From NCBI GenBank assembly GCA_028293125.1, contig JAQGPJ010000052.1, positions 124,001-188,000 of the forward strand: 64,000 bases of DNA, written 5' to 3'. Positions 8,429 to 31,182 of this stretch are shown here, piece by piece. The position numbers were made by a program, and so were the translations under genes. How positions within the stretch are numbered: position 1 is the first letter of the stretch; every line of letters starts with the position of its first letter. Source of the stretch: Verrucomicrobiales bacterium (lineage in GTDB: Bacteria > Verrucomicrobiota > Verrucomicrobiia > Verrucomicrobiales > V1-33). The notes below the pieces were generated by a model. The model saw only the letters and a program-made list of their open reading frames with translations, had not been told where the DNA came from and did no database searches.

Positions 8429-8433
8429 TTTAT

Positions 8434-9270
8434 ATGTCCCTTTCTGTCCTGATATTGACAAAAAACGAGGAGCAAGACCTGCCGGGATGCCTGAAGTCCG
8501 TAGCGTGGTGTGACGATGTCCATGTATTCGATTCCCTCAGCACCGACCGCACCTGTGAGATCGCGGAGAACGGCGGAGCAAAAATCACCTCCCGGAAATT
8601 CGACAACTGGTCAGCGCATCAGAACTGGGGACTGGCCAACATCCCCTTCAAACATCCCTGGGTGCTGTACATTGACGCTGACGAGCGGGTGTCCGAAGGG
8701 CTCCGCACCCATGCCCTTGCCGCCGCCAAAGCGGATGCCCCTGAAAGCGCTTTCCGCCTCCGGCGCCGTGATTTTTATGGAAACGGAGTCTGGCTGAAGC
8801 ACGCCCAGATTTCTCCTTTTTACCTACGGCTCTTCCGCCCATCGAAAATGCGGTATGAGCGCCTGGTGAATCCGGTCTCCATTGTGGACGGCCCCATCGG
8901 GAACATCGAGGGCTTCCTCGACCACTACCCCTTCAGCAAAGGCGTCGGGTTCTGGCTGGAGCGGCATATCAAATACGCCGACCTGGAGGCGAGAACGATC
9001 ATGGAAAACCGAGCCAAACAAGACTCGTTCTCACTGATGAAGGCTTTCACGGCGACGGATTTCACGGAAAAAAGATTTCATCAAAAAGAGCTTTTCTACC
9101 GCCTACCATTCCGACCGTTGATAAAGCTGTTTTATATGTTTTTCCTGCGCCGTGCCTTTCTGGACGGCAGGGCGGGCTGCACCTACGCCGTGCTTCAATC
9201 CATTTACGAATACTTTATCGTTTTAAAACAGCGCGAACTAGAAAATCGCCAATCTGAAACTAGGGTATGA
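8434..9270 (+). CDS. Glycosyltransferase family 2, WaaE/KdtX-like
   Basis: 278 residues. It begins MSLSVLILTKNEEQDLPGCL, followed by the DSLSTDRT nucleotide-contact loop and the metal-binding IDADERV near residue 75. These are the features of an inverting GT-A transferase of the lipopolysaccharide core WaaE group. The C-terminus carries a hydrophobic segment (LIKLFYMFFLRRAF) that probably attaches it to the membrane. The start at 8434 is chosen because the in-frame ATG at 8383 lies inside the upstream acetyltransferase. The last about 37 bases of coding DNA recur at 12415, which points to a local rearrangement. Confidence 0.85.
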   Translation: MSLSVLILTKNEEQDLPGCLKSVAWCDDVHVFDSLSTDRTCEIAENGGAKITSRKFDNWSAHQNWGLANIPFKHPWVLYIDADERVSEGLRTHALAAAKADAPESAFRLRRRDFYGNGVWLKHAQISPFYLRLFRPSKMRYERLVNPVSIVDGPIGNIEGFLDHYPFSKGVGFWLERHIKYADLEARTIMENRAKQDSFSLMKAFTATDFTEKRFHQKELFYRLPFRPLIKLFYMFFLRRAFLDGRAGCTYAVLQSIYEYFIVLKQRELENRQSETRV

Positions 9271-9380
9271 TTATAATAAAACATCAATCTTAAGGTTTGC
9301 GTGTTGAGTTAAATGTCTGAACGCCTATTATCTCTTTTGCCTCCCGGGAAATTTTTTCAACAGGCTCTTAGCGGCGGTCA

Positions 9381-9415
9381 CCCCATACCGCAGGCTGTGC
9401 CCCGCTAATCAATTA
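9381..9415 (+). mobile_element. Short fragment of an IS66-like element end
   Basis: About 35 bp closely match, in the same orientation, the end region that occurs reverse-complemented at 13,502-13,540. The shared core includes CCGCAGGCTGTG and CCCGCTAATCAATTA. The same terminal word is found at 11,771 (as GTAATTGATTAACGGG) and in shortened form at 12,400. The fragment carries no gene and lies in the 236-bp space between the GT2 and the AT-rich acyltransferase, so it marks the left side of an inserted cassette. Confidence 0.6.
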
Positions 9416-9506
9416 GACAAAAATCAGCTTACTAACTTTTGTCATGGCTTTTTTTATTAATCCGATGCAGGGCATGATCATCGCTTGGCGATTAGTTTAA
9501 ATAAAC

Positions 9507-10604
9507 ATGACCACTCCTATAAAAAGCGTCTCAAAATCTATTGCTTTTGAAAATTTGGATATCGTCAGGGGCATTGCTGCTGCTTCTGTTTTCCTGCATC
9601 ACTATGCACAACAATTTCCCCACCCCGGCAGCGCGGCCTTAAGTTTTTTTGAAAGGCTGGGTGGTTGGGGAGTAACCATATTTTTCGTCCTGAGTGGGTT
9701 CTGTATCCACTGGTCTGAAATAAATAACCGCAGTTCCGGGAACGCGTTTAATATCAAATCATACTTTGTTAGAAGGATTTTCCGGATTTATCCCGCATTT
9801 GTCGTATGTTTAATAGTGTGCTTAATCATTTCGAATTACCACACGTCTAATAATATAAATCACGGAGGCATTGAAGCCGTTTTCTCCCACCTCTCGCTCA
9901 CAAGTTCATTTTCATTAACTAATCGAAATGCAATAAACACTGTTCTGTGGACTGTGGTTGTTGAGGCGCATTTTTATATCCTTTACGCAATATTTCAGAA
10001 ATACTTCAATGGCTTGAAAGCTGCCCGCCGAATGGTTGTGATTTCCATCGTCGTGAGTGCCATCACGTATGTGGCATCCGTCACTTTCGTTGAGGCTGGC
10101 TTGGTGCGAGTAACAATGCAGAAGATATTCGCCACTTCTTGGTGGACTTGGTGCTTGGGTGCTTGGGCGGCGGAGATTATAAAAACAGGACATCCGCTGA
10201 TAAAATCCCACCGGTTGCGGCAAGGGGTAATGGCGTGCGCAATTGCAGGATCCTTAGCATTGCTTTTCTTGCCCCCGACCTATTCACTTCAGGCGATCCG
10301 TTTTATTCTTCCTATATTTGTTTTGATTGGTATGCTATTAATATTAAAGAGTCAGACTTCCCCGCTGTTTAAGCCATTGAGGGGATTGGGGGAGGTTTCC
10401 TATTCGTTGTACCTCTTCCATCCGGTAGCTCTATTAGTTGGAATTTATATCGTCGTCAATCCTATAAGTCATTTTGTGTTGGTGATGGTGATGGGCTTGC
10501 TAATTGCAGTGTTTGGATATAACTGCATTGAAAAACCATTCAACTTCAAGGGGCATCGCTTGGCGAAAAAAATCAGCAGCAAAAAAGCTGGCAGTATTTC
10601 TTAA
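9507..10604 (+). CDS. Membrane acyltransferase, acyltransferase_3 (OafA-like)
   Basis: 365 residues, polytopic. The start contains ENLDIVRGIAAASVFLHHYAQ, the family signature with Asp-x3-Arg and the catalytic His pair in the first membrane helix, and GGWGVTIFFVLSGFCIHW is the second conserved block. It would acylate a surface sugar. The DNA is clearly more AT-rich than the genes at 1-9 kb, and an IS66-like fragment lies just upstream, so this gene was probably acquired horizontally with the following glycosyltransferase. Confidence 0.85.
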   Translation: MTTPIKSVSKSIAFENLDIVRGIAAASVFLHHYAQQFPHPGSAALSFFERLGGWGVTIFFVLSGFCIHWSEINNRSSGNAFNIKSYFVRRIFRIYPAFVVCLIVCLIISNYHTSNNINHGGIEAVFSHLSLTSSFSLTNRNAINTVLWTVVVEAHFYILYAIFQKYFNGLKAARRMVVISIVVSAITYVASVTFVEAGLVRVTMQKIFATSWWTWCLGAWAAEIIKTGHPLIKSHRLRQGVMACAIAGSLALLFLPPTYSLQAIRFILPIFVLIGMLLILKSQTSPLFKPLRGLGEVSYSLYLFHPVALLVGIYIVVNPISHFVLVMVMGLLIAVFGYNCIEKPFNFKGHRLAKKISSKKAGSIS

Positions 10605-10650
10605 ATGTTATTTTCAATTTACTGGCACTAATCCCAGTTATATCAGTTTT

Positions 10651-11436
10651 ATGAGCTACAAATATTTTCTCGGTATCCGTTTTTGGAATGAACAAACTGA
10701 AAATTTGCTAATTTCAGCTGATCAGCAAGGTGGCCTTTTTACCGTTCCTTCCGCACCTTCCTTGGGTGCTATGGACAATGATGCTCCATTGTCGCGCGCA
10801 TATCGTGCTTCGGACTGGGCGGTAGTAGATGGCGGTTATGTGGCTCTTATTTTGAGGTTTTGTTTCGGCAAATCAATTCGTCGTATCTCTGGTTTGCAAA
10901 TACTTCAGAAGTTGATTGGGGTGGGGCATGATCATGCAGTTCCCATGGAGGAGCGCACTATTTTGTGGGTTATACCCAACGCCAAGGAGGAGGATGCTAT
11001 CCGTAATTATTTGCTTCAAGGAAATTTTGATCTAAATCGTCAGCATTTTTATGAGGCACCGTTTTACAAAACCGAAGATGATTTTGCTGACCAGAAGCTG
11101 CTAATTAAAGCAAAGGGAGTGGCTCCTGATTGGATTATTATGTGCATTGGTGGCGGTCGCCAAGAAAAGATAGGCTATTTTATCAGGCAGCAATTTGAAC
11201 TTTTTAAAAGAAAGCCAGTTATTCTGTGCACAGGAGGAGCTATTTCATTCCTTACCGGAACACAAGCTAATATTCCTACTTGGGCAGACCGTTTATACTT
11301 GGGATGGCTAATGCGGATTTTTTCCAGCCCGCGGCTTTTTGGAGCGCGATATTTGGATGCCGCATGGCGCTTTCCCAAACTGCTATGGACATCACGCAAG
11401 TGCATTTTTATTGAGAGTGCACATTCTAGTAAATGA
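10651..11436 (+). CDS. WecG/TagA/CpsF-family glycosyltransferase
   Basis: 261 residues. FTVPSAPSLGAMDNDAP and ASDWAVVDGGYVALILRF give the typical opening (in WecG and TagA the matching part holds the catalytic Thr and Asp), and WIIMCIGGGRQEKIGYFI is the conserved GxxxQE block near residue 175. This GT26 family adds N-acetylmannosaminuronate, ManNAc or similar residues to lipid-linked intermediates. It follows the acyltransferase by 46 bp and shares its AT-rich composition, so both probably arrived together. The ATG at 10651 is preferred because the earlier in-frame ATG at 10504 overlaps the acyltransferase. Confidence 0.8.
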   Translation: MSYKYFLGIRFWNEQTENLLISADQQGGLFTVPSAPSLGAMDNDAPLSRAYRASDWAVVDGGYVALILRFCFGKSIRRISGLQILQKLIGVGHDHAVPMEERTILWVIPNAKEEDAIRNYLLQGNFDLNRQHFYEAPFYKTEDDFADQKLLIKAKGVAPDWIIMCIGGGRQEKIGYFIRQQFELFKRKPVILCTGGAISFLTGTQANIPTWADRLYLGWLMRIFSSPRLFGARYLDAAWRFPKLLWTSRKCIFIESAHSSK

Positions 11437-11589
11437 TAAGTCGGATCCTCCGGACGATGCTTTTGTTTGCCTGAAACATTGAACTAATAATTCAGTTTTT
11501 TTAGGAAAAATACTTGTGTAAAATATATTTAATACAATTATTGATCCACCGCCTTAAAGGCGGTGTTTTCGTTTTTGCGGCTAAAAGCC

Positions 11590-11790
11590 GGTAGTGGGGC
11601 GAAAGTGTAAGTCTTGACGCGTGACCGTGCGGCAAGAGTTGACCGTTGACCGCAGCCAGCCTGCCGCCTTGGCTGGCGGGCAATTTGGCGAAGAGCCAGT
11701 ACAGGTAGACGCGCGGGTTCATGCCTCGGCGCAGGCAGCTGCGCAGTAGACTAAAGAGCGTGGTGGAGCGGTAATTGATTAACGGGTGAA
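11590..11790 (-). pseudogene. IS66-like transposase, C-terminal remnant
   Basis: On the minus strand this reads RSTTLFSLLRSCLRRGMNPR followed by VYLYWLFAKLP. This matches the well-known C-terminal tail of IS66 TnpC proteins (a short helix ending in R-x-G-(I/M)-(D/N)-P, then a Tyr-Leu helix). It has no start and is cut off at about 11,790, at the sequence GTAATTGATTAACGGG that marks other remnants of the same element. It is non-functional. Confidence 0.6.
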
Positions 11791-11809
11791 AATTGTTTCG
11801 GGGACTATG

Positions 11810-12407
11810 AGTACTTCTGGAATGCCCATTGCGAGAGAGCGCATCACCATGGGCTTCCTCTGTGCAAAGTTCCGGCGGTGATCTCGGGCCCGCCACCCGC
11901 ATCTCCTTGGGCCAAAGCGCCCTGACCCAAGCTCAGCTATGAGGCAAACGCCTTGGACGTCATCGGCCAACAAAACTGCCTGAGCCTTCTGCTCAAAAAT
12001 CTCATCACTGTGGAGGAGACAAGTACTGGGCGGACGCGGGACCACCAAGAGCTGGGACGCCTTGTCAGGCAAAAGCCCCGGCTGCCAATTGCGGAACCGC
12101 AGGCTCAGGAACCCTGACAATCAGCGCCTGCTGGACCGGTTCGGCCCTCAGCATGACAACGGACGCGTTCTGCAATTTCTGGAGCGTCCGGAGAATTGAG
12201 CCCAGCAACAACTGTGCAGAACGCGGACTGCACAGTGCCGTGATTGCGCGCAAAGTGCCGCATTGCTCGAAGAATGGGTGTGGAGCCGGGACTTATGAGG
12301 TCATGAAAAGCATCACCGCCACCTTATCTCTGCGCGGCCATCAGGTGTCCAGAGCCTTGGCAAGCATGATTAAGGGCGACCCTATGCCACAGCCAGCGGC
12401 CCGCTAA
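11810..12407 (+). pseudogene. IS66-like transposase remnant with frameshifts
   Basis: The plus strand holds pieces of a transposase in more than one frame. The clearest part, from about 12,190, reads EPSNNCAERGLHSAVIARKV and later MKSITATL. The N-N-x-A-E-R block is the conserved C-terminal part of the IS66 DDE domain. Upstream, DNQRLLDRFG (from 12,115) lies in another frame with a stop between, so at least one frameshift has broken the gene. The segment from MKSITATL on is repeated, inverted, at 13,502-13,655. Confidence 0.55.
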
Positions 12408-12414
12408 TGAACCC

Positions 12415-12452
12415 CTTCAATCCATTTACGAATATTCTATCGCTTATAAAAC
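12415..12452 (+). repeat. Duplicated 3' end of the GT2 gene
   Basis: The first 20 bases (CTTCAATCCATTTACGAATA) are identical to positions 9193-9212, inside the end of the GT2 gene, and most of the next 17 also match. The copy has no coding frame of its own and lies directly in front of the second AT-rich acyltransferase gene. It indicates that GT2 tail plus acyltransferase once formed one unit, and that the two cassettes are duplicated or exchanged versions at the same junction. Confidence 0.75.
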
Positions 12453-12474
12453 TGAAAATAGATCTGACTCCAAC

Positions 12475-13485
12475 ATGAGTATGACAGAACAAAAGCGGCT
12501 GACAGGTCCAGATTTTGTCAAAGGGTTGGCAATTGTTTTGATGGTTTATGGACATTTGGACCATGCTGGCAGCCTAGTGGTGCAGCAAAAAGCAGCAGTC
12601 AAATGGGTTTACTCATTTCACATGCCCTTATTTTTACTTATTTCTGGGTTTTTATTCAAGTTGCGTTCTGAAGGGAAGATATTAATTGGGAATGTTGTAT
12701 CAAAAATATTACGTCCATATTTAATTTTTGCGGCGTTATATTTGTGCGGCCTATGGGTAGCGTCCACGATGGGATTGCCAACTGCAAATGTAGCCCCTCA
12801 ATCAGCACAGGGCTTTTTTGATACCCTGTTTCTTCATCCACGCGGAGGCTACTGGTTCCTACACTCCCTATTGATAATTCAGATATCTTTGATAATTCCT
12901 AAAACAATTAGAATTTTTAAAAATAATGACCCATTAATTTACTTTATACTTTCATCACTAATTTGGGTTATATGTATATATTATAATGTTATACTTCCTA
13001 GGACAATTGCATTTTTCATGATTGGTTTTTGCCTCGGGAATATCTGGGGGATGTTCAGGGGCGGGATTTGGGTGGGATTTGCAGGTGCCATGATCACGGC
13101 AGGACTGTCATGTTCTGATCTATTTACATTTTCGATGGCTCAGATAGTATGGGCGGTATCCCTGCTTTGCTTTTTAAGCGGCGTATCCGAAGCAAAACCA
13201 TCAGCATTAGCGGTTCGGTTTTTTGCTTGGTTGGGAAAAAATTCAATGGGTATTTTAGTTTTTCATGCTATTTATGTAAGCCTTTTTAAAATTTTATCAA
13301 AATCAATACTTAAAGTAGAGCCTTCAGGAATTCTAAATTCAATCGCTGCAACAGTGTTTTGCGTCGGCGCATGCCTTGCAACATCATTTTTGATTGATCG
13401 CGCAAAAATGACAATGTTCCTTTTCGGATCTAATAATGTGTATTTTCCTTTCCGCGCGAAACGAGAATTCATTGTAGGTTGTTAA
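12475..13485 (+). CDS. Membrane acyltransferase, fucose 4-O-acetylase-like
   Basis: 336 residues with about ten hydrophobic segments. GPDFVKGLAIVLMVYGHLDH at the start carries the Asp-x-x-Lys-Gly and the conserved His of the YcfT/fucose 4-O-acetylase branch of acyltransferase_3, and FHMPLFLLISGFLFKLR is the second signature. It probably O-acetylates a surface sugar. It is the most AT-rich gene in the window and is flanked on both sides by IS66-like remnants in opposite orientation, so recent horizontal acquisition is likely. Confidence 0.82.
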   Translation: MSMTEQKRLTGPDFVKGLAIVLMVYGHLDHAGSLVVQQKAAVKWVYSFHMPLFLLISGFLFKLRSEGKILIGNVVSKILRPYLIFAALYLCGLWVASTMGLPTANVAPQSAQGFFDTLFLHPRGGYWFLHSLLIIQISLIIPKTIRIFKNNDPLIYFILSSLIWVICIYYNVILPRTIAFFMIGFCLGNIWGMFRGGIWVGFAGAMITAGLSCSDLFTFSMAQIVWAVSLLCFLSGVSEAKPSALAVRFFAWLGKNSMGILVFHAIYVSLFKILSKSILKVEPSGILNSIAATVFCVGACLATSFLIDRAKMTMFLFGSNNVYFPFRAKREFIVGC

Positions 13486-13501
13486 GGGTCTAATTGGGAC
13501 G

Positions 13502-13655
13502 TAATTGATTAGCGGGCCACAGCCTGCGGCATGGGCGGCCGCTGATCATGCCGGCAAGGGCACCGGACACGTGATGGCCGTTCAGAGCCAGGGTGGCGGT
13601 GATGCTTTTCATGGCCTCACAAGTCCGGGCACCGCCTTCGTTTTTCGGTAAGCGG
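13502..13655 (-). pseudogene. IS66-like transposase remnant, inverted copy
   Basis: The minus strand encodes MKSITATLALNGHHVSGALA, homologous to the piece at 12,301-12,407 on the plus strand, preceded by a KNEGGARTCEA segment. It ends in the same CCCGCTAATCAATTA word. The pair of inverted copies brackets the acyltransferase at 12,475-13,485. No full transposase remains. Confidence 0.6.
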
Positions 13656-13665
13656 TGCGTTTAGC

Positions 13666-15212
13666 CTTTTGATTACCCATAAGTTTTGGCGATTTTGAAT
13701 CCCAACACTATATCCTCCAGCCGCCGCCAGCCGCGCCAGATGACCATGTTTCCCGGTGGCCCGTCATGAGCCCGTGCCAGCCATCCTCCAAGCCTGGCCA
13801 GTGCCTTGGGGTAATCACCAAGGGTGCTGTGTGGCGGATGGCCGCGTTTTGGCGGAATGACGGTGTCCAGCGCCGCCTGCTCCTCCGGTGTCAGCACCTG
13901 CGAAACCTCCGCCAGCGGACTTGCGCGGTTGAGCATGGTCATCCAGAAAACACGCCAGCTTACAATGCAGTAAAGAGCGATCCGTTTGACCACCCGCTCC
14001 CAGGTCCTCGGCTGGGAGTCCTCCGCCCGGCAGCCGGATTTGAGTATTTTATGAAAGACTTCAATTTTCCATCGAAGGGCATACCAGTCCATTTTCCCGG
14101 CGGCCTCCCCAGGAGTAGAGGCCGGCAGGCTGGTGAGCAGTTGCCAATCAATGGGCTCACGCCCCGCCGGCGCGCTGCGCTCGGTGGCGTGGATCACGGT
14201 TAGCTCCAGCTCCGGCCATCGCGCCTGCTTGCCAACGGGAGGCAGAATCCACAGGTGCCGCCAGCGGACGTCCAGCCACGCCTCCTCCACGCGGCCGTTG
14301 CCCCGTCAAAGAACAGGGTGTGGGAACCGGATCCATCAGGCTTTTCCATGGCTTCGGCCACGGTGCGCCCTCCCTCCCCCACAAGACGGTCCACACAGGT
14401 GCGCACCAAAAAGTGCATATGCTCACTTTGCGCCGTGCAAAAAAGCTCATAAATATCACTTTCCCGGCCGCCGATATGCACCTGCCGCTCCGGATTTCCC
14501 AGCAGGCTGCCTGACTCCCGGAGGTTCTCCAGCCAGCGGTGGCTTTCCTTCTCCTCAATGGGAATGCGGGTCGGATTGGCCCCGCGTTCATGGGCGTTGG
14601 CGTCCTTGAACCGCTGGCGGCTCCGCAATTGGACGGCTGCCAGGCCCAGCGGCACCCCGTCCAGTATCAGTGCCATGCCAGAGTGCATCAGCAGTCCGCG
14701 CACCATGATCTCCCGTCCGTCGCCCAAGCGGGCCTTGGTGAGCAGCCCGAAACTGGCGGCGCTCTCCCGCTGAAACACAAACTCCGTGGTGTCGTAGAGA
14801 ATCAGAACCGTGCCGGACGCGGCCTGGAACCGCGCGCGGGTGGCTTCAAAATGGCCCGCCAGGATGCCGGACTCACTCACTTTGGGATTGGAAAGGAAGC
14901 GATAGTCCGCCTTCACCGCGGCCCAGTCCTGACAGGCGCGCGGAATGCCGCCGCCGATGTGGTCATGAACCTCACCCAGCAGCCGGCGGAACCGCTTCCG
15001 GAGCCGTTCGTCCGCGAAAGTGGACGCCCGTGCCTCTTCATCAGCCCAGCCGTCATGATCTCCGCTTTTCGGAAGAATAGGTGCGTGATTGCTGTCATTC
15101 CGGTCTGGTTTTTGGTTCTTCATCCCGCGTTTTCAACAAATTGACTTTACTTTGCACAGCCAATTTTCAAGAGACACAATTTTTTCACTCTGAAGTTGTG
15201 GGTAATCAAAAG
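13666..15212 (-). mobile_element. IS4/Tn5-like insertion sequence with terminal inverted repeats
   Basis: The element is about 1.55 kb. Its left end reads CTTTTGATTACCCATAAGTT, and its right end, read inward on the minus strand, is CTTTTGATTACCCACAACTT, so 18 of 20 terminal bases agree. It carries one transposase gene on the minus strand, broken by a frameshift. The right end lies inside a second, related transposase fragment. I could not find a convincing target-site duplication, so the flanks have probably been rearranged since insertion. Confidence 0.7.
13673..15123 (-). pseudogene. IS4/Tn5-like transposase, frameshifted
   Basis: It reads in two overlapping frames on the minus strand. The N-terminal part (15,123 to about 14,290) has the Tn5-type DNA-binding start (FADERLRKRFRRLL, CQDWAAVKADYRFL) and the catalytic LILYDTTEF (first Asp), as well as GGRESDIYELF (second Asp). 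The C-terminal part (about 14,290 to 13,673) has ALRWKIEVFHKILKSGCRAE, which supplies the Y-x2-R-W-x-I-E signature and the catalytic Glu of IS4 enzymes. All three acidic residues survive, but the frame changes near 14,290, so a single full-length product needs a frameshift. I see no clear slippery site and treat it as a pseudogene. Confidence 0.75.
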
Positions 15213-15512
15213 CCTTCGTGGCCGCCCAGTCCTGACAGGCAAACGGAATGCTGCCGCCGATGCGGCGGAAGAGACTGTCCAGCAGCGTTTTAAATCGCCG
15301 GTCCAGTCGCGCGTCTCCAAAGCCTCCTTCAGCCGTTTCCCCCTCCATCGGGAACATATCGGTAACCTCATTGATCCGGGGATTTTCCGGTGCTTTTCCG
15401 CGCTGCTTTCCGACGGTCATGCACAACTTCTGAGCAAAAACGTATCACGTTGTACAGACAATTCAGCAGGGATCGCCGGTTTTTCAGACCGAAACTTGTG
15501 GGTAATTGGAAG
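15213..15512 (-). pseudogene. Second IS4/Tn5-like element, right-end remnant
   Basis: The minus strand from 15,360 encodes FGDARLDRRFKTLLDSLF and then ACQDWAATKAF, the N-terminal DNA-binding region of a different Tn5-like transposase. The frame is cut at 15,212 by the end of the neighbouring IS4-like element. Its own outer end is at about 15,512, where CTTCCAATTACCCACAAGTT (minus strand) resembles the neighbour's terminal repeat. The rest of this element is missing, so it was probably split or deleted by the later insertion. Confidence 0.65.
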
Positions 15513-24922: not shown

Positions 24923-25252
24923 ATGTCCGACACGCCGACGCCGACACCTGATTCCCAGCGCATCCACAGCGAGGAATTCCTGCATGAACTCATGCGGCGG
25001 CAGCTGCGGCTGTCGGCCTCCTGCGCCGTGGCCTTCCTGGTGGTGCTGATTGGAGTGCCGCTGGCGAATTACTTCGCTCCGGACTTCATGGCCCAACGCG
25101 TGGGCGGCTTCACCCTCACTTGGCTGGTGCTGGGGGTGCTTTTCTTTCCCTTCGTCTGGATCATCGCCCGCGTCTTCATCACCCGCTCCATCGCTCTGGA
25201 GGAATCGGAGGTGAGGAACGCCGCCGCGCCGGTCTCCAAGCCTGAAGCCTGA
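24923..25252 (+). CDS. DUF485 membrane protein
   Basis: 109 residues with two membrane helices (SCAVAFLVVLIGVPLANYF and LTWLVLGVLFFPFVWIIARV) and a short charged C-terminus. The size, the arrangement and the LMRRQLRLS start match the DUF485 (YjcH) family. This family is almost always found upstream of an ActP-type solute:sodium symporter, as here, 88 bp away. It is thought to help the transporter in acetate or short-chain acid uptake, but its exact role is unknown. Confidence 0.85.
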   Translation: MSDTPTPTPDSQRIHSEEFLHELMRRQLRLSASCAVAFLVVLIGVPLANYFAPDFMAQRVGGFTLTWLVLGVLFFPFVWIIARVFITRSIALEESEVRNAAAPVSKPEA

Positions 25253-25340
25253 AGCGTGATGCGGGCCTGATCCGATCTGACCTGACCTGTCCGGATTGAA
25301 GCTCATTCCGCTTTCGCCGGCTCCCCCCCCTTTCCGTCCC

Positions 25341-27125
25341 ATGCAAGACCAAATCGATTACTGGATCCTGACCTTCTCCGCCATCACCGTCATCATCACG
25401 GTCTGGATGGGATTCCGCTCCGCCAAAACGTCGAAATCCGCCTCGGACTTCTTTGTGGCCGGACGCTCGGTCTCCGTGGGCTGGAATGCGTCCGCCATCT
25501 CCGGGGAATACCTCAGCGCCGCCAGCTTCATGGGGGTCGCCGGCATGGTCATGTCCTCCGGCTATGATGCGCTGTGGTATCCGGTGTGTTACGCGTGCGG
25601 TTATCTGTTCCTGCTGCTGTTCATCGCGGGGCCGCTGCGGCGCTTCGGGGCCTACACCATTCCGGACTTCGCCGAAGGGCGGTATGATTCGCCGGTCTTC
25701 CGGAAGATCGCCGTCTGCTTCGTGCTCTTCATCGGCTTCTTCTACACCATGCCGCAGATGAAGGGGGCGGGCACCACCCTTGCCTATATCTTCCCAGGCC
25801 TGCCGTATTGGGTCGGTGTGGCCGTGGTGGGCGCGGTGATCACGCTGAATGTGGCGCTGGGCGGCATGAAGGGCATCACGCTGGTGCAGGCGGTGCAGTA
25901 CTGGATCAAGATGTTCGCCATCTCGGTGCCGGTCTTTGTGCTCATGGCCGTTTATGGCGGCTATGGCCGGAATCTTTCCCTGAACCACTCGGGCTATGAC
26001 AGCACTCCGCCGCCGGCGGTGGTGCAAACGGTGGAATACGGGAATCCGGAAGCACAGCGCCTGGCCATGCCGGAGAAAGCTCCGAAGGATGAGGATTGGG
26101 TGGCACCCTTCGGTCCTCTGACGACCAAGGCCGCGAAAGCCGCCGGGCTGAATGCGGAGCAGGCCAAACCCTACTCGCTGCTTTACACCTTCTCGCTTAT
26201 CGTCGCCCTCGTCTGCGGCACCGCCGGGCTTCCCCATATCCTGGTGCGGTTCTATACCAATCCCGACGGCGTGGCGGCCAAAAGGACGACCATGTGGGTG
26301 ATGATCCTCATCGGAGTCTTTTATGTGTTTCCGCCGGTTTTCGGCGTGCTGGGGCGGAACTTCCTGCCGGAGCTCTACACCGGGCTCACCGGTATGAAGG
26401 GCACCGATCAGGTGGTGCTGAAACTGCCCACCCTTATCCGCGAGAAATACGGCGTGCTGGGCTCCATTCTCAGCGGGGTCACCTGCGCCGGGGCTTTCGC
26501 CGCTTTCATGAGCACCTTCTCCGGCCTGCTGGTCTCCATGTCCAGTGCCCTGGCCCACGATGTGTATGGACGCATGCTGCGCCCGCATTCCTCGCCGGAG
26601 CAGCGCATGCGCATGTTCAAATTCTGCGCGGTGCTGGTGGGGGCCGTGTCCGTGCTGCTGGGCTGCCTGGTGGAGCCGCTGGAGATCAGCTTCATGGTCG
26701 GTCAGGCCTTTGCCATCGCCGCCGCCAGCTACTTCCCGCTGCTGTTCATGAGCGTCTGGTGGCGCGGCATGACCATGGCCGGCGCGGCGGTGGGCATGCT
26801 TTCCGGTGGCCTGCTGGCGCTGGTCGCGGTGGCGCTGACCAATGCCAGCAGCCTCGCCTTGGACAAGGGACCCATGGGCAAAGTGTTCGCCGGCTTCGCG
26901 GGATTGAACGATTTCTGGAAAGCTCACCCGCTGCTCCGCATCCTGGCCGAGCAGCCCGCTCTGTGGGCCGTGCCGCTGGCCATCATCCTCATGGTCGTGG
27001 TCTCCAAGGCCACGCGTCGGAGCATTCCGTCCGACATCCGCATGAAGATGCTCGTCCTGCACGCTCCGGAAAAGCTGGGCCTGAAACAGGAATACATCCA
27101 GGAGCACAGCGGGCCCGCCCACTGA
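25341..27125 (+). CDS. Solute:sodium symporter, ActP/MctC-like
   Basis: 594 residues and about 13 membrane segments. SASDFFVAGRSVSVGWNASA and GEYLSAASFMGVAG are the sodium-solute symporter signatures in the first helices, GGMKGITLVQAVQYWIK is the classic block of helix 5, and CGTAGLPHILVRFYT is that of helix 7. A long extracytoplasmic loop of about 60 residues (YDSTPPPAVV onward) distinguishes this subgroup. The family takes up acetate, pyruvate or other monocarboxylates with Na+ or H+. The ATG at 25341 is chosen over the one at 25296 because the family's first helix begins right after it. It pairs with the DUF485 gene upstream. Confidence 0.88.
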   Translation: MQDQIDYWILTFSAITVIITVWMGFRSAKTSKSASDFFVAGRSVSVGWNASAISGEYLSAASFMGVAGMVMSSGYDALWYPVCYACGYLFLLLFIAGPLRRFGAYTIPDFAEGRYDSPVFRKIAVCFVLFIGFFYTMPQMKGAGTTLAYIFPGLPYWVGVAVVGAVITLNVALGGMKGITLVQAVQYWIKMFAISVPVFVLMAVYGGYGRNLSLNHSGYDSTPPPAVVQTVEYGNPEAQRLAMPEKAPKDEDWVAPFGPLTTKAAKAAGLNAEQAKPYSLLYTFSLIVALVCGTAGLPHILVRFYTNPDGVAAKRTTMWVMILIGVFYVFPPVFGVLGRNFLPELYTGLTGMKGTDQVVLKLPTLIREKYGVLGSILSGVTCAGAFAAFMSTFSGLLVSMSSALAHDVYGRMLRPHSSPEQRMRMFKFCAVLVGAVSVLLGCLVEPLEISFMVGQAFAIAAASYFPLLFMSVWWRGMTMAGAAVGMLSGGLLALVAVALTNASSLALDKGPMGKVFAGFAGLNDFWKAHPLLRILAEQPALWAVPLAIILMVVVSKATRRSIPSDIRMKMLVLHAPEKLGLKQEYIQEHSGPAH

Positions 27126-27140
27126 GCGGCCCGGGGCCGG

Positions 27141-27194
27141 AGTCGGAATCGGAATCGGAATCGGAATCGGAATCGCAGTCGGAATCGCAGTCGG
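27141..27194 (+). repeat. Hexanucleotide tandem repeat
   Basis: About nine imperfect copies of a TCGGAA/TCGCAG hexamer lie directly after the symporter stop codon. They are outside any gene, about 135 bp before ileS, in a stretch otherwise poor in signals. Such tracts can change length by slippage, but I see no promoter boxes around this one. Confidence 0.85.
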
Positions 27195-27329
27195 CAAAAG
27201 AGGGCAGGGCGTCCGGAACCCTCGTTTGCCAGGAGCGCGGGATAAAAGCGGGCTGCGCCCCCGCCTGTGATTTCCTCTTTCGCCCCGCGCAAAGGCCGGT
27301 AGGGTGCGGGTTCTTTTTCCCCCAGTCTC

Positions 27330-30149
<2,820 letters not shown>

Positions 30150-31182
30150 TTTCAGGCGACGGGCTTTTGGTGCCGCCAACCGCCAGCCGCCGGCCATGGA
30201 TCGCTTTTCGTGAGGGATCCGGTGAGGCAATTCACCGGGTCCCTGCGATAACGCGGCTGTCCCCTCCGGGTTTTCCGGAGTCCGGGCGGTTGCCCCCAGC
30301 CTTGCGGCCCGGTGGCGGGTTCCCGGTTGGCGGCGTGGCCTGCCTTTTTCAGAAGGCATGGGTCCCTTTCCGCATTGCCGGGATCCGCCCGCCGGATACC
30401 GGCTTTTCCTCTTTCCGGTTTCTGAAAAGGCTCTCGTCAGTCCATCCCCTTGAGGATGATTGTAGAATAGCGGGCTGCGGTGGCAGGGACGCAACTCCCG
30501 CAGGGACGCCGGCGTCACCCCCCGGTGACCTCCGCGCCACCCCTCCGGTGACATGGGGGTCACCCCCCCAGCGGAATTTTGGAAAAAAGTTTGCATGTCA
30601 CCGGTGACATGGGTGTCACCGGTCGGCCGGAGGCCGGCGTCAGGGGAGGATGGAACCGGACCGGATCCCCCATCGCGGCAGCGCTGTCCGGCGTCAGGCC
30701 GCCGCGCGCCGTTCCAGATCCGCTTTCCGGCGGTGGACGGAAAGGCGTGCCGCCGCAGCTGGAAAAACCATGCCATGATAGCAAAAAATTACTTACGCTG
30801 AACACCGGTGGTTCAGCGATTCCAAATAACGCACGGAAAGTCGCTCAAGGCAAGGCATTTCAAGGGAAATGAAGCCTTTTATTACGGTGAAAATAGTCCG
30901 TGTGGGAACCTCCGGAAGGTTGGGGAATCTGAGTTTAAAAAATGCTATTATGGATACCATTCACCATGCGGATCCGAGTTGTCAGGGGCCGGCTCCGGCC
31001 CGCCGATGCACCGGCCTCCTCAGCCCTGAAAAGGCGCATTCGGGCAGCCCGGGGCAGCGCCCCAGTTTTTCCGTGTCAAATTGGGCAGACACCCTCAGGC
31101 CACGGGGCGAGGCCCGCAATTTTAATAAATTCCGGGCATTGACTTCCTGACAGCTATCATCAATGTTAAATTTTAATTTTCC
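30150..31182. other. Intergenic region between ileS and cas3
   Basis: About 1 kb without a convincing gene. Short frames are present, and a very long frame on the opposite strand is only a shadow of GC-rich ileS and its neighbours. The region holds a cluster of GGTGAC/GTCACC dyads (30,514-30,620). An AT-richer stretch before cas3 contains TTGACT at 31,139, a weak candidate -35 box. I see no tRNA and no CRISPR repeat here. Confidence 0.5.
30514..30620. promoter_or_regulatory. Cluster of seven GGTGAC half-sites in dyads
   Basis: Seven copies of GGTGAC or its complement GTCACC lie within 107 bp. Two are arranged as GGTGAC-N6-GTCACC with near-identical centres ATGGGG and ATGGGT (30,547-30,564 and 30,603-30,620). 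One is GTCACC-N4-GGTGAC (30,514-30,529), and one is a direct back-to-back GTCACCGGTGAC (30,597-30,608). This could be a multi-site operator or a set of RNA hairpins. No gene starts within 500 bp on either strand other than cas3. Confidence 0.4.

Follow-up and report, generated by a model that had tools for sequence, protein, structure and literature searches.

Within a 64,000-nucleotide stretch of the genome of a Verrucomicrobiales bacterium (contig JAQGPJ010000052.1, C108:124001-188000 in a 6.48-Mb assembly; hereafter the window), two membrane acyltransferase genes, AT3b and AT3c, and a glycosyltransferase gene, WecG, lie behind an intact glycosyltransferase family 2 gene (GT2) among remnants of insertion sequences (ISs). 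Here a gene cluster for an exopolysaccharide (EPS), probably of the Wzx/Wzy type, comes to its variable downstream end. The explanation that we find the probable one is that this end is chimeric, a past recombination or deletion having set a second GT2-acyltransferase segment behind a first, with old ISs that mark the junction and may have helped. It is based on the gene families, the base composition, the anatomy of the ISs, a broken copy of the end of the GT2 gene (the scar) and a gene position that varies in other genomes. The features of the junction are, in window coordinates:

8431..9270, plus strand: GT2, intact glycosyltransferase family 2 gene (PF00535, E 2e-9), with whose 3' end the scar is compared
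9374..9415, plus strand: E1, right end (last 42 bp) of an ISBst12-like element, aligning to 1439-1480 of a 1,481-bp copy
9507..10604, plus strand: AT3b, AT-rich membrane acyltransferase gene (Acyl_transf_3; PF01757, E 1e-31)
10651..11436, plus strand: WecG, AT-rich gene for a WecG/TagA/CpsF-family glycosyltransferase (PF03808, E 7e-18)
11771..12411, plus strand: E2, ISBst12-like, with a left end, a degenerate right end and three internal deletions, in four aligned blocks
12415..12452, plus strand: GT2', the scar, a broken copy of the GT2 gene's end, 89% identical to 9193-9229 with one gap (E 1.5e-6)
12475..13485, plus strand: AT3c, membrane acyltransferase gene (Acyl_transf_3; PF01757, E 1e-21)
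13501..13647, minus strand: E3, inverted right end of an ISBst12-like element, 88% identical to 1334-1481 of the 1,481-bp copy

The 38-bp scar starts almost base to base after the degenerate end of E2 (12,411 / 12,415). In the GT2 frame it reads LQSIYEYSIAYK..., near a motif that is almost constant among the inspected homologues, and continues without a stop into AT3c; another frame holds a TGA overlapping the ATG of AT3c. The scar thus shows that AT3c formerly stood directly behind a GT2 gene that is now reduced to its last codons. Among 81 GT2 tails, the best match to the scar is the GT2 of the window itself (score 29 versus at most 23 for the 80 homologues), which favours, on 38 bp, a duplicate or an allele from a close strain. 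Import from one of the 80 homologues was rejected, since no tail beats that of the window's own GT2. The first-pass annotation had placed a copy of the GT2 gene's end before each of two acyltransferase cassettes, the first with AT3b and WecG and the second with AT3c. This is true of AT3c, which has the extra broken copy; AT3b is preceded by the intact GT2 itself, across a gap of 236 bp that contains an IS end.

The IS ends at the locus belong to an element with a full-length relative of 1,481 bp elsewhere in the genome (G000:C20:11084-12564), whose ends, GTAATTGATTAGCGGG and GTAATTAATTAGCGGG, form imperfect terminal inverted repeats. Between them lies a single open reading frame (ORF) of 485 aa, the other listed frames overlapping the same DNA, and its transposase is of the IS66-type DDE class (PF03050, E 3e-25, 89.6 bits versus a cut-off of 23.1). 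No 8-bp target duplication was found between the flanks of the copies at C20, C105 or E2, and the element is therefore called only ISBst12-like; old copies may have lost the duplication. The end motif GTAATTGATTARCGGG, allowing up to two mismatches, occurs at 17 places in the genome versus one for the control (the pattern read backwards), and three of the 17 fall in the 4.1 kb of the locus. The motif marks a left end at 11,771 and right ends at 9,381, about 12,411 and 13,502. E2 (641 bp) aligns with the 1,481-bp copy in blocks 1-71, 578-665, 917-1020 and 1151-1477 at 74-86%, and two inverted pairs link the remnants, one of 34 bp between 9,382-9,415 and 13,502-13,535 (94%, E 3e-8) and one of 130 bp between 12,282-12,411 and 13,505-13,633 (79%, E 5e-25). 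Of four IS66-like end fragments noted at first, ends are present at 9,381, 11,771 and, inverted, 13,502, and those at 11,771 and 12,301 prove to be parts of one internally deleted element (11,771-12,411). The accompanying idea that the same IS fragments bound the cassettes is not supported, the copies being separate decayed remnants in two orientations and E2 lacking a target duplication.

A 674-bp, two-ended ISBst12-like copy at C105:26452-27125 is also internally deleted, with a deletion that differs from that of E2. The idea that E2 belongs to a short non-autonomous mobile family was rejected for this reason; given their different internal deletions, both copies look like independent decay products. 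The sequence of the remnants bears as well on an assembly artefact, in which unrelated pieces would have been joined via IS repeats. The assembly is in 120 contigs, and misjoins typically arise at repeats, but over longer blocks neither E2 nor E3 exceeds about 88% identity to any other copy, which makes them unique sequence (E1 is too short for a judgement), and completeness is 99.1 with contamination of 0.7. An artefact is therefore highly improbable.

In a scan of the whole window (mean 60% GC), 1-kb stretches below 47% GC occur only within 8,759-11,897 and 11,969-13,906. AT3b has a GC of 0.433 and a GC at third codon positions (GC3) of 0.473, WecG of 0.438 and 0.382, and AT3c, the most AT-rich gene measured, of 0.387 and 0.341, versus 0.53-0.61 and 0.61-0.75 for ten measured genes upstream in the window. 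The initial observation that the genes of both stretches are AT-rich is confirmed by these values, the composition looks foreign, and the surface-glycan role first suggested for the genes fits their families. With GC3 of 0.34-0.47 versus 0.61-0.75, the AT-richness is more than an amino-acid effect. An origin merely in hydrophobic proteins was rejected, because WecG lies outside the membrane acyltransferase family and shares the low GC3. A mosaic GT2 with an AT-rich 3' half was likewise discarded, the sharp drop in GC being confined to 9,211-9,300; GT2 has a smaller dip (0.46) at 9,031-9,120. The Wzy-like gene on the same contig upstream of the window (L183:17630-19312, G000:C108) is AT-rich too (GC 0.459, GC3 0.485). 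Its GC3 indicates that low GC marks more than the IS-flanked stretches.

If the cluster end is chimeric, AT3b, WecG and AT3c would derive from an AT-richer source, and a second GT2-AT3c segment, as a copy or an allele, would have been placed behind GT2-AT3b-WecG. Most of the second GT2 would then have been lost via deletion or recombination, leaving the scar as the junction of an IS end and a GT2 end at 12,411-12,415. Old ISBst12-like, IS66-like and IS4-like elements would have collected at this place; the break or the homology may have come from them. As judged from their families, AT3b and AT3c probably decorate sugars in the repeat unit with acyl, likely acetyl, groups, a fucose being a possible target of AT3c, and WecG would add a sugar on the lipid carrier. 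Several points weigh against this explanation. The flanks of E2 are without target duplication, and E2 is therefore not a clean insertion; the origin of the scar is weakly constrained by its 38 bp; the upstream flippase-like gene has no Pfam match; and decay alone could yield the same picture without an IS role in rearrangement. As the flippase lacks a Pfam match and the Wzy match, a weak one, is below its cut-off (24.8 versus 26.6 bits), the Wzx/Wzy type is only likely.

Decay is central to a simpler account, according to which the acyltransferases were acquired singly by lateral transfer, ISs later hopped into a dispensable region with no part in the rearrangement and the scar is the leftover of a local duplication. 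The IS copies are indeed old and decayed, the 1,481-bp element is not special to the locus, its own genome yielding 18 matching pieces (5 of 12 further genomes of the family have matches too), and no such IS remnant was noted beside the AT-rich Wzy-like gene. However, the end of E2 lies almost directly against the GT2 scar, a placement for which a later random hop would need chance. We regard accumulation and decay as a rather doubtful account of the locus, though one with real points in its favour.

The chimeric reading draws further on the surroundings of GT2 in other genomes, for which a pattern scan gave a set of homologues with 80 of 96 kept (loci L026-L105). Among records from Verrucomicrobiota, Bacteroidota and some Pseudomonadota, GT2 keeps 60-84% identity. 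The closest homologues found are in a Verrucomicrobiaceae metagenome-assembled genome (MAG; 84%), an Akkermansiaceae MAG (82%) and Roseibacillus (79%). In 53 of the 80 loci a WcaF-like gene is present less than 1 kb before GT2 (tblastn, one query), and GT2 seems to travel widely with this neighbour. When neighbours on both sides were clustered like for like, those downstream (76) formed 35 clusters, the largest of 22, and those upstream (79) formed 22 clusters, the largest of 40; the contrast is moderate. With stricter criteria (same strand, start no more than 300 bases away), the downstream table holds 28 clusters in 69 loci, obtained by clustering and so by a method differing from the tblastn count of 53 in 80. 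The largest of these clusters, by their representatives, have 23 (family 4 glycosyltransferase, GT4), 9 (GT2-like), 5 (VanZ-like, below cut-off) and 5 (epimerase) members. An ORF was present in 69 of the 80 loci of the strict table, several single-member clusters looking like chance ORFs in GC-rich DNA, and less than 1.5 kb was available after GT2 in 6 of the 80. Between species, the gene position after GT2 is more variable than the position before it.

The genes found at this position include those of the window. Acyl_transf_3 genes stand directly behind GT2 in L054 and, as a run of three, in L040, and relatives of AT3c (37%) lie 2.2-2.8 kb beyond GT2 in L093 and L099. WecG occurs behind GT2 in L026, L028 and L032 at 50-53% identity, with a weaker match of 31% in L030. 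Because WecG holds this place in other Verrucomicrobiota, that of the window is better regarded as part of the operon than as cargo of a cassette, and the first cassette looks like the operon continuing. The picture of two cassettes between IS fragments thus keeps its IS remnants at the junctions and loses WecG, which follows GT2 in relatives. The same observations make a dedicated exchange site improbable, that is, one at which IS66-type ends act as recurring anchors for swapping acyltransferase cassettes between strains, altering a surface antigen or phage receptor. IS ends do flank AT3c on both sides, one precedes AT3b, and the position after GT2 varies in other genomes; however, the remnants lie in two orientations, without target duplication and with none intact in the locus, and the WecG of the first cassette is a usual follower of GT2 in relatives. 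A somewhat different and still unlikely possibility, though a shade less so, is that the conserved 3' end of GT2 (LQSIYEYFIVLK) is a cross-phylum recombination joint, behind which glycan genes attach by homologous exchange in GT2. If so, the gene before GT2 would be the steadier one and the decoration genes after it would change, and IS remnants and GT2 stubs would be left over from the process.

Within the genus, one genome per species was compared. G001, the one same-genus relative with a long enough contig and recognisable genes beside the Wzc block, has the Wzc, Wza-like, outer-membrane-like and PEP-CTERM-like genes in the same order; the genes beside this shared block (carbamoyltransferase, GT4-like and O-antigen-ligase-family) differ from those of the window. 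In G003 the Wzc block is kept and the glycan genes of the window were not found by tblastn in 20 kb, with only about 4.4 kb of contig beyond Wzc. The contig of G002 is shorter than 4 kb, and G004 has only a distant Wzc (25-28%). A close GT2 was not found in the four other genomes of the genus, where the best matches reach 32-34%. In samples of the class and the phylum, which overlap, AT3b has matches at E 1e-20 in 2 of 285 other class genomes and 0 of 386 other phylum genomes, AT3c in 1 of 285 and 3 of 386, and WecG in 35 of the 285 class genomes. The acyltransferases thus occur sporadically, as decoration genes gained by lateral transfer would be expected to. The GT2-homologue and genus comparisons support glycan-gene turnover between species, and neither shows IS-mediated cassette exchange within a species. 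What remains of the proposed swap site is a variable position after GT2 in homologous loci and different glycan genes beside the Wzc block in G001, rather than a defined site with interchangeable cassettes. The first-pass observation is thus largely correct, and its interpretation goes too far.

Comparable rearrangements have been described. The Salmonella group D2 O-antigen cluster arose by recombination of the D1 and E clusters; the model put forward for it is a transposition that was resolved when the clusters recombined in a gene that they share (homologous recombination; PMC3715488). Like the cluster end proposed here, that polysaccharide cluster is chimeric, carries the remnant of an IS-like element (an H-repeat) at its junction and retains remnants of genes; its parent clusters are known and the event was demonstrated (PMC3715488), whereas in the window the order of events is inferred and the element is ISBst12-like. 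The parallel lies in the possible mode of working, the element families being different. The K loci of Acinetobacter baumannii, as summarised in PMC9676051, are alike in that central sugar genes vary substantially, acetyl/acyltransferase genes vary and ISs interrupt the locus, and differ in that their diversity is described across thousands of assemblies, the species of the window being represented by one genome. The account of ISDge4, a member of the ISBst12 group of the IS66 family, describes that group as having one ORF, for the transposase, and lacking the additional ORFs that elements of the family usually carry (PMC12898284). ISDge4 has one transposase ORF of 449 aa, compared with 485 aa in the C20 copy, and imperfect terminal repeats starting GT(A/G)A, as in the C20 copy; in contrast to the copies checked in the window genome, at which none was found, it transposed with an 8-bp direct repeat (PMC12898284).

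Three further features accompany the junction:

11547..11565, plus strand: terminator-like hairpin with a T-rich tail behind WecG (consensus scan, weak)
11607..11770, minus strand: second IS66-family remnant, the 3' part of a transposase, 81-82% identical to pieces of C3:1056-1301
13663..15215, minus strand: IS4/Tn5-like element, its transposase split over two frames (PF14706, PF02281, PF01609)

The second IS66-family remnant and the IS4/Tn5-like element were absent from the first-pass list. The former (about 11,607-11,770) is truncated by the left end of E2; its ORF in the window gave no match in a Pfam search, and its relative on C3 (locus L132) is a clear IS66 transposase (PF03050, E 3e-63). 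The latter, to the right of E3, has 23-bp terminal inverted repeats with 20 of 23 positions matching. A second IS4-like fragment at 15,133-15,426 (PF14706) adjoins it, with a 54-bp repeat (83%) between them, and apparently one IS4-like element inserted into another at 13663-15426. The IS set at the locus is a nest of dead elements, and with no intact IS in the locus and no target duplication nothing was found to show ongoing swapping. Terminator-like sites in the region number 9 versus 5.7 +/- 2.4 in shuffles, and are hence weak; promoter-like sites are no commoner than chance in the region scan (8 versus 8.8 +/- 3.4 in shuffles).

All three decoration genes score above the curated cut-offs of their families. 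AT3b and AT3c clear the curated PF01757 cut-off over most of the domain (110.7 and 77.8 bits versus 31), and WecG, for which we chose the start at 10651 within a longer ORF (10504-11436), passes that of PF03808 (65.4 versus 27.4 bits). AT3c scores 39.8 bits against the NolL fucose acetyltransferase model (NF042426), not reaching its cut-off of 425, and by sequence appears to be a distant NolL relative only. The polysaccharide cluster to which these genes belong extends over 13.5 kb from the start of the window and over a large part of the 20 kb before it. Upstream of the window it contains a GDP-mannose dehydratase, the weak Wzy match and two Acyl_transf_3 genes, together with genes that we take to be other sugar-nucleotide genes and a Wzx/flippase-like gene. 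In the window the order is GT4 genes, AT3a (the first acyltransferase), the WcaF-like hexapeptide acetyltransferase, GT2, AT3b, WecG and AT3c. The cluster has five Acyl_transf_3 genes in all, which points to a polymer with heavy decoration. Wzc lies on the opposite strand from 16.6 kb, with a tyrosine autokinase family match above its cut-off, followed by what are presumably Wza-like and outer-membrane-like genes; the PEP-CTERM label is likewise our assumption. Farther along the window, a minus-strand ORF of 1,865 codons at 25179-30776 overlaps a plus-strand transporter-like ORF (25,296-27,125), and looks like a chance frame in GC-rich DNA.

The locus looks like ordinary, if tidy, turnover of a polysaccharide locus rather than a working swap device. 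It reveals no new mechanism, IS-scarred chimeric polysaccharide clusters being already known, for example from the Salmonella account (PMC3715488). It is a readable fossil of the turnover of glycan-decoration genes in a little-studied phylum, and it points to the gene position after GT2 as a joint that can be tested.

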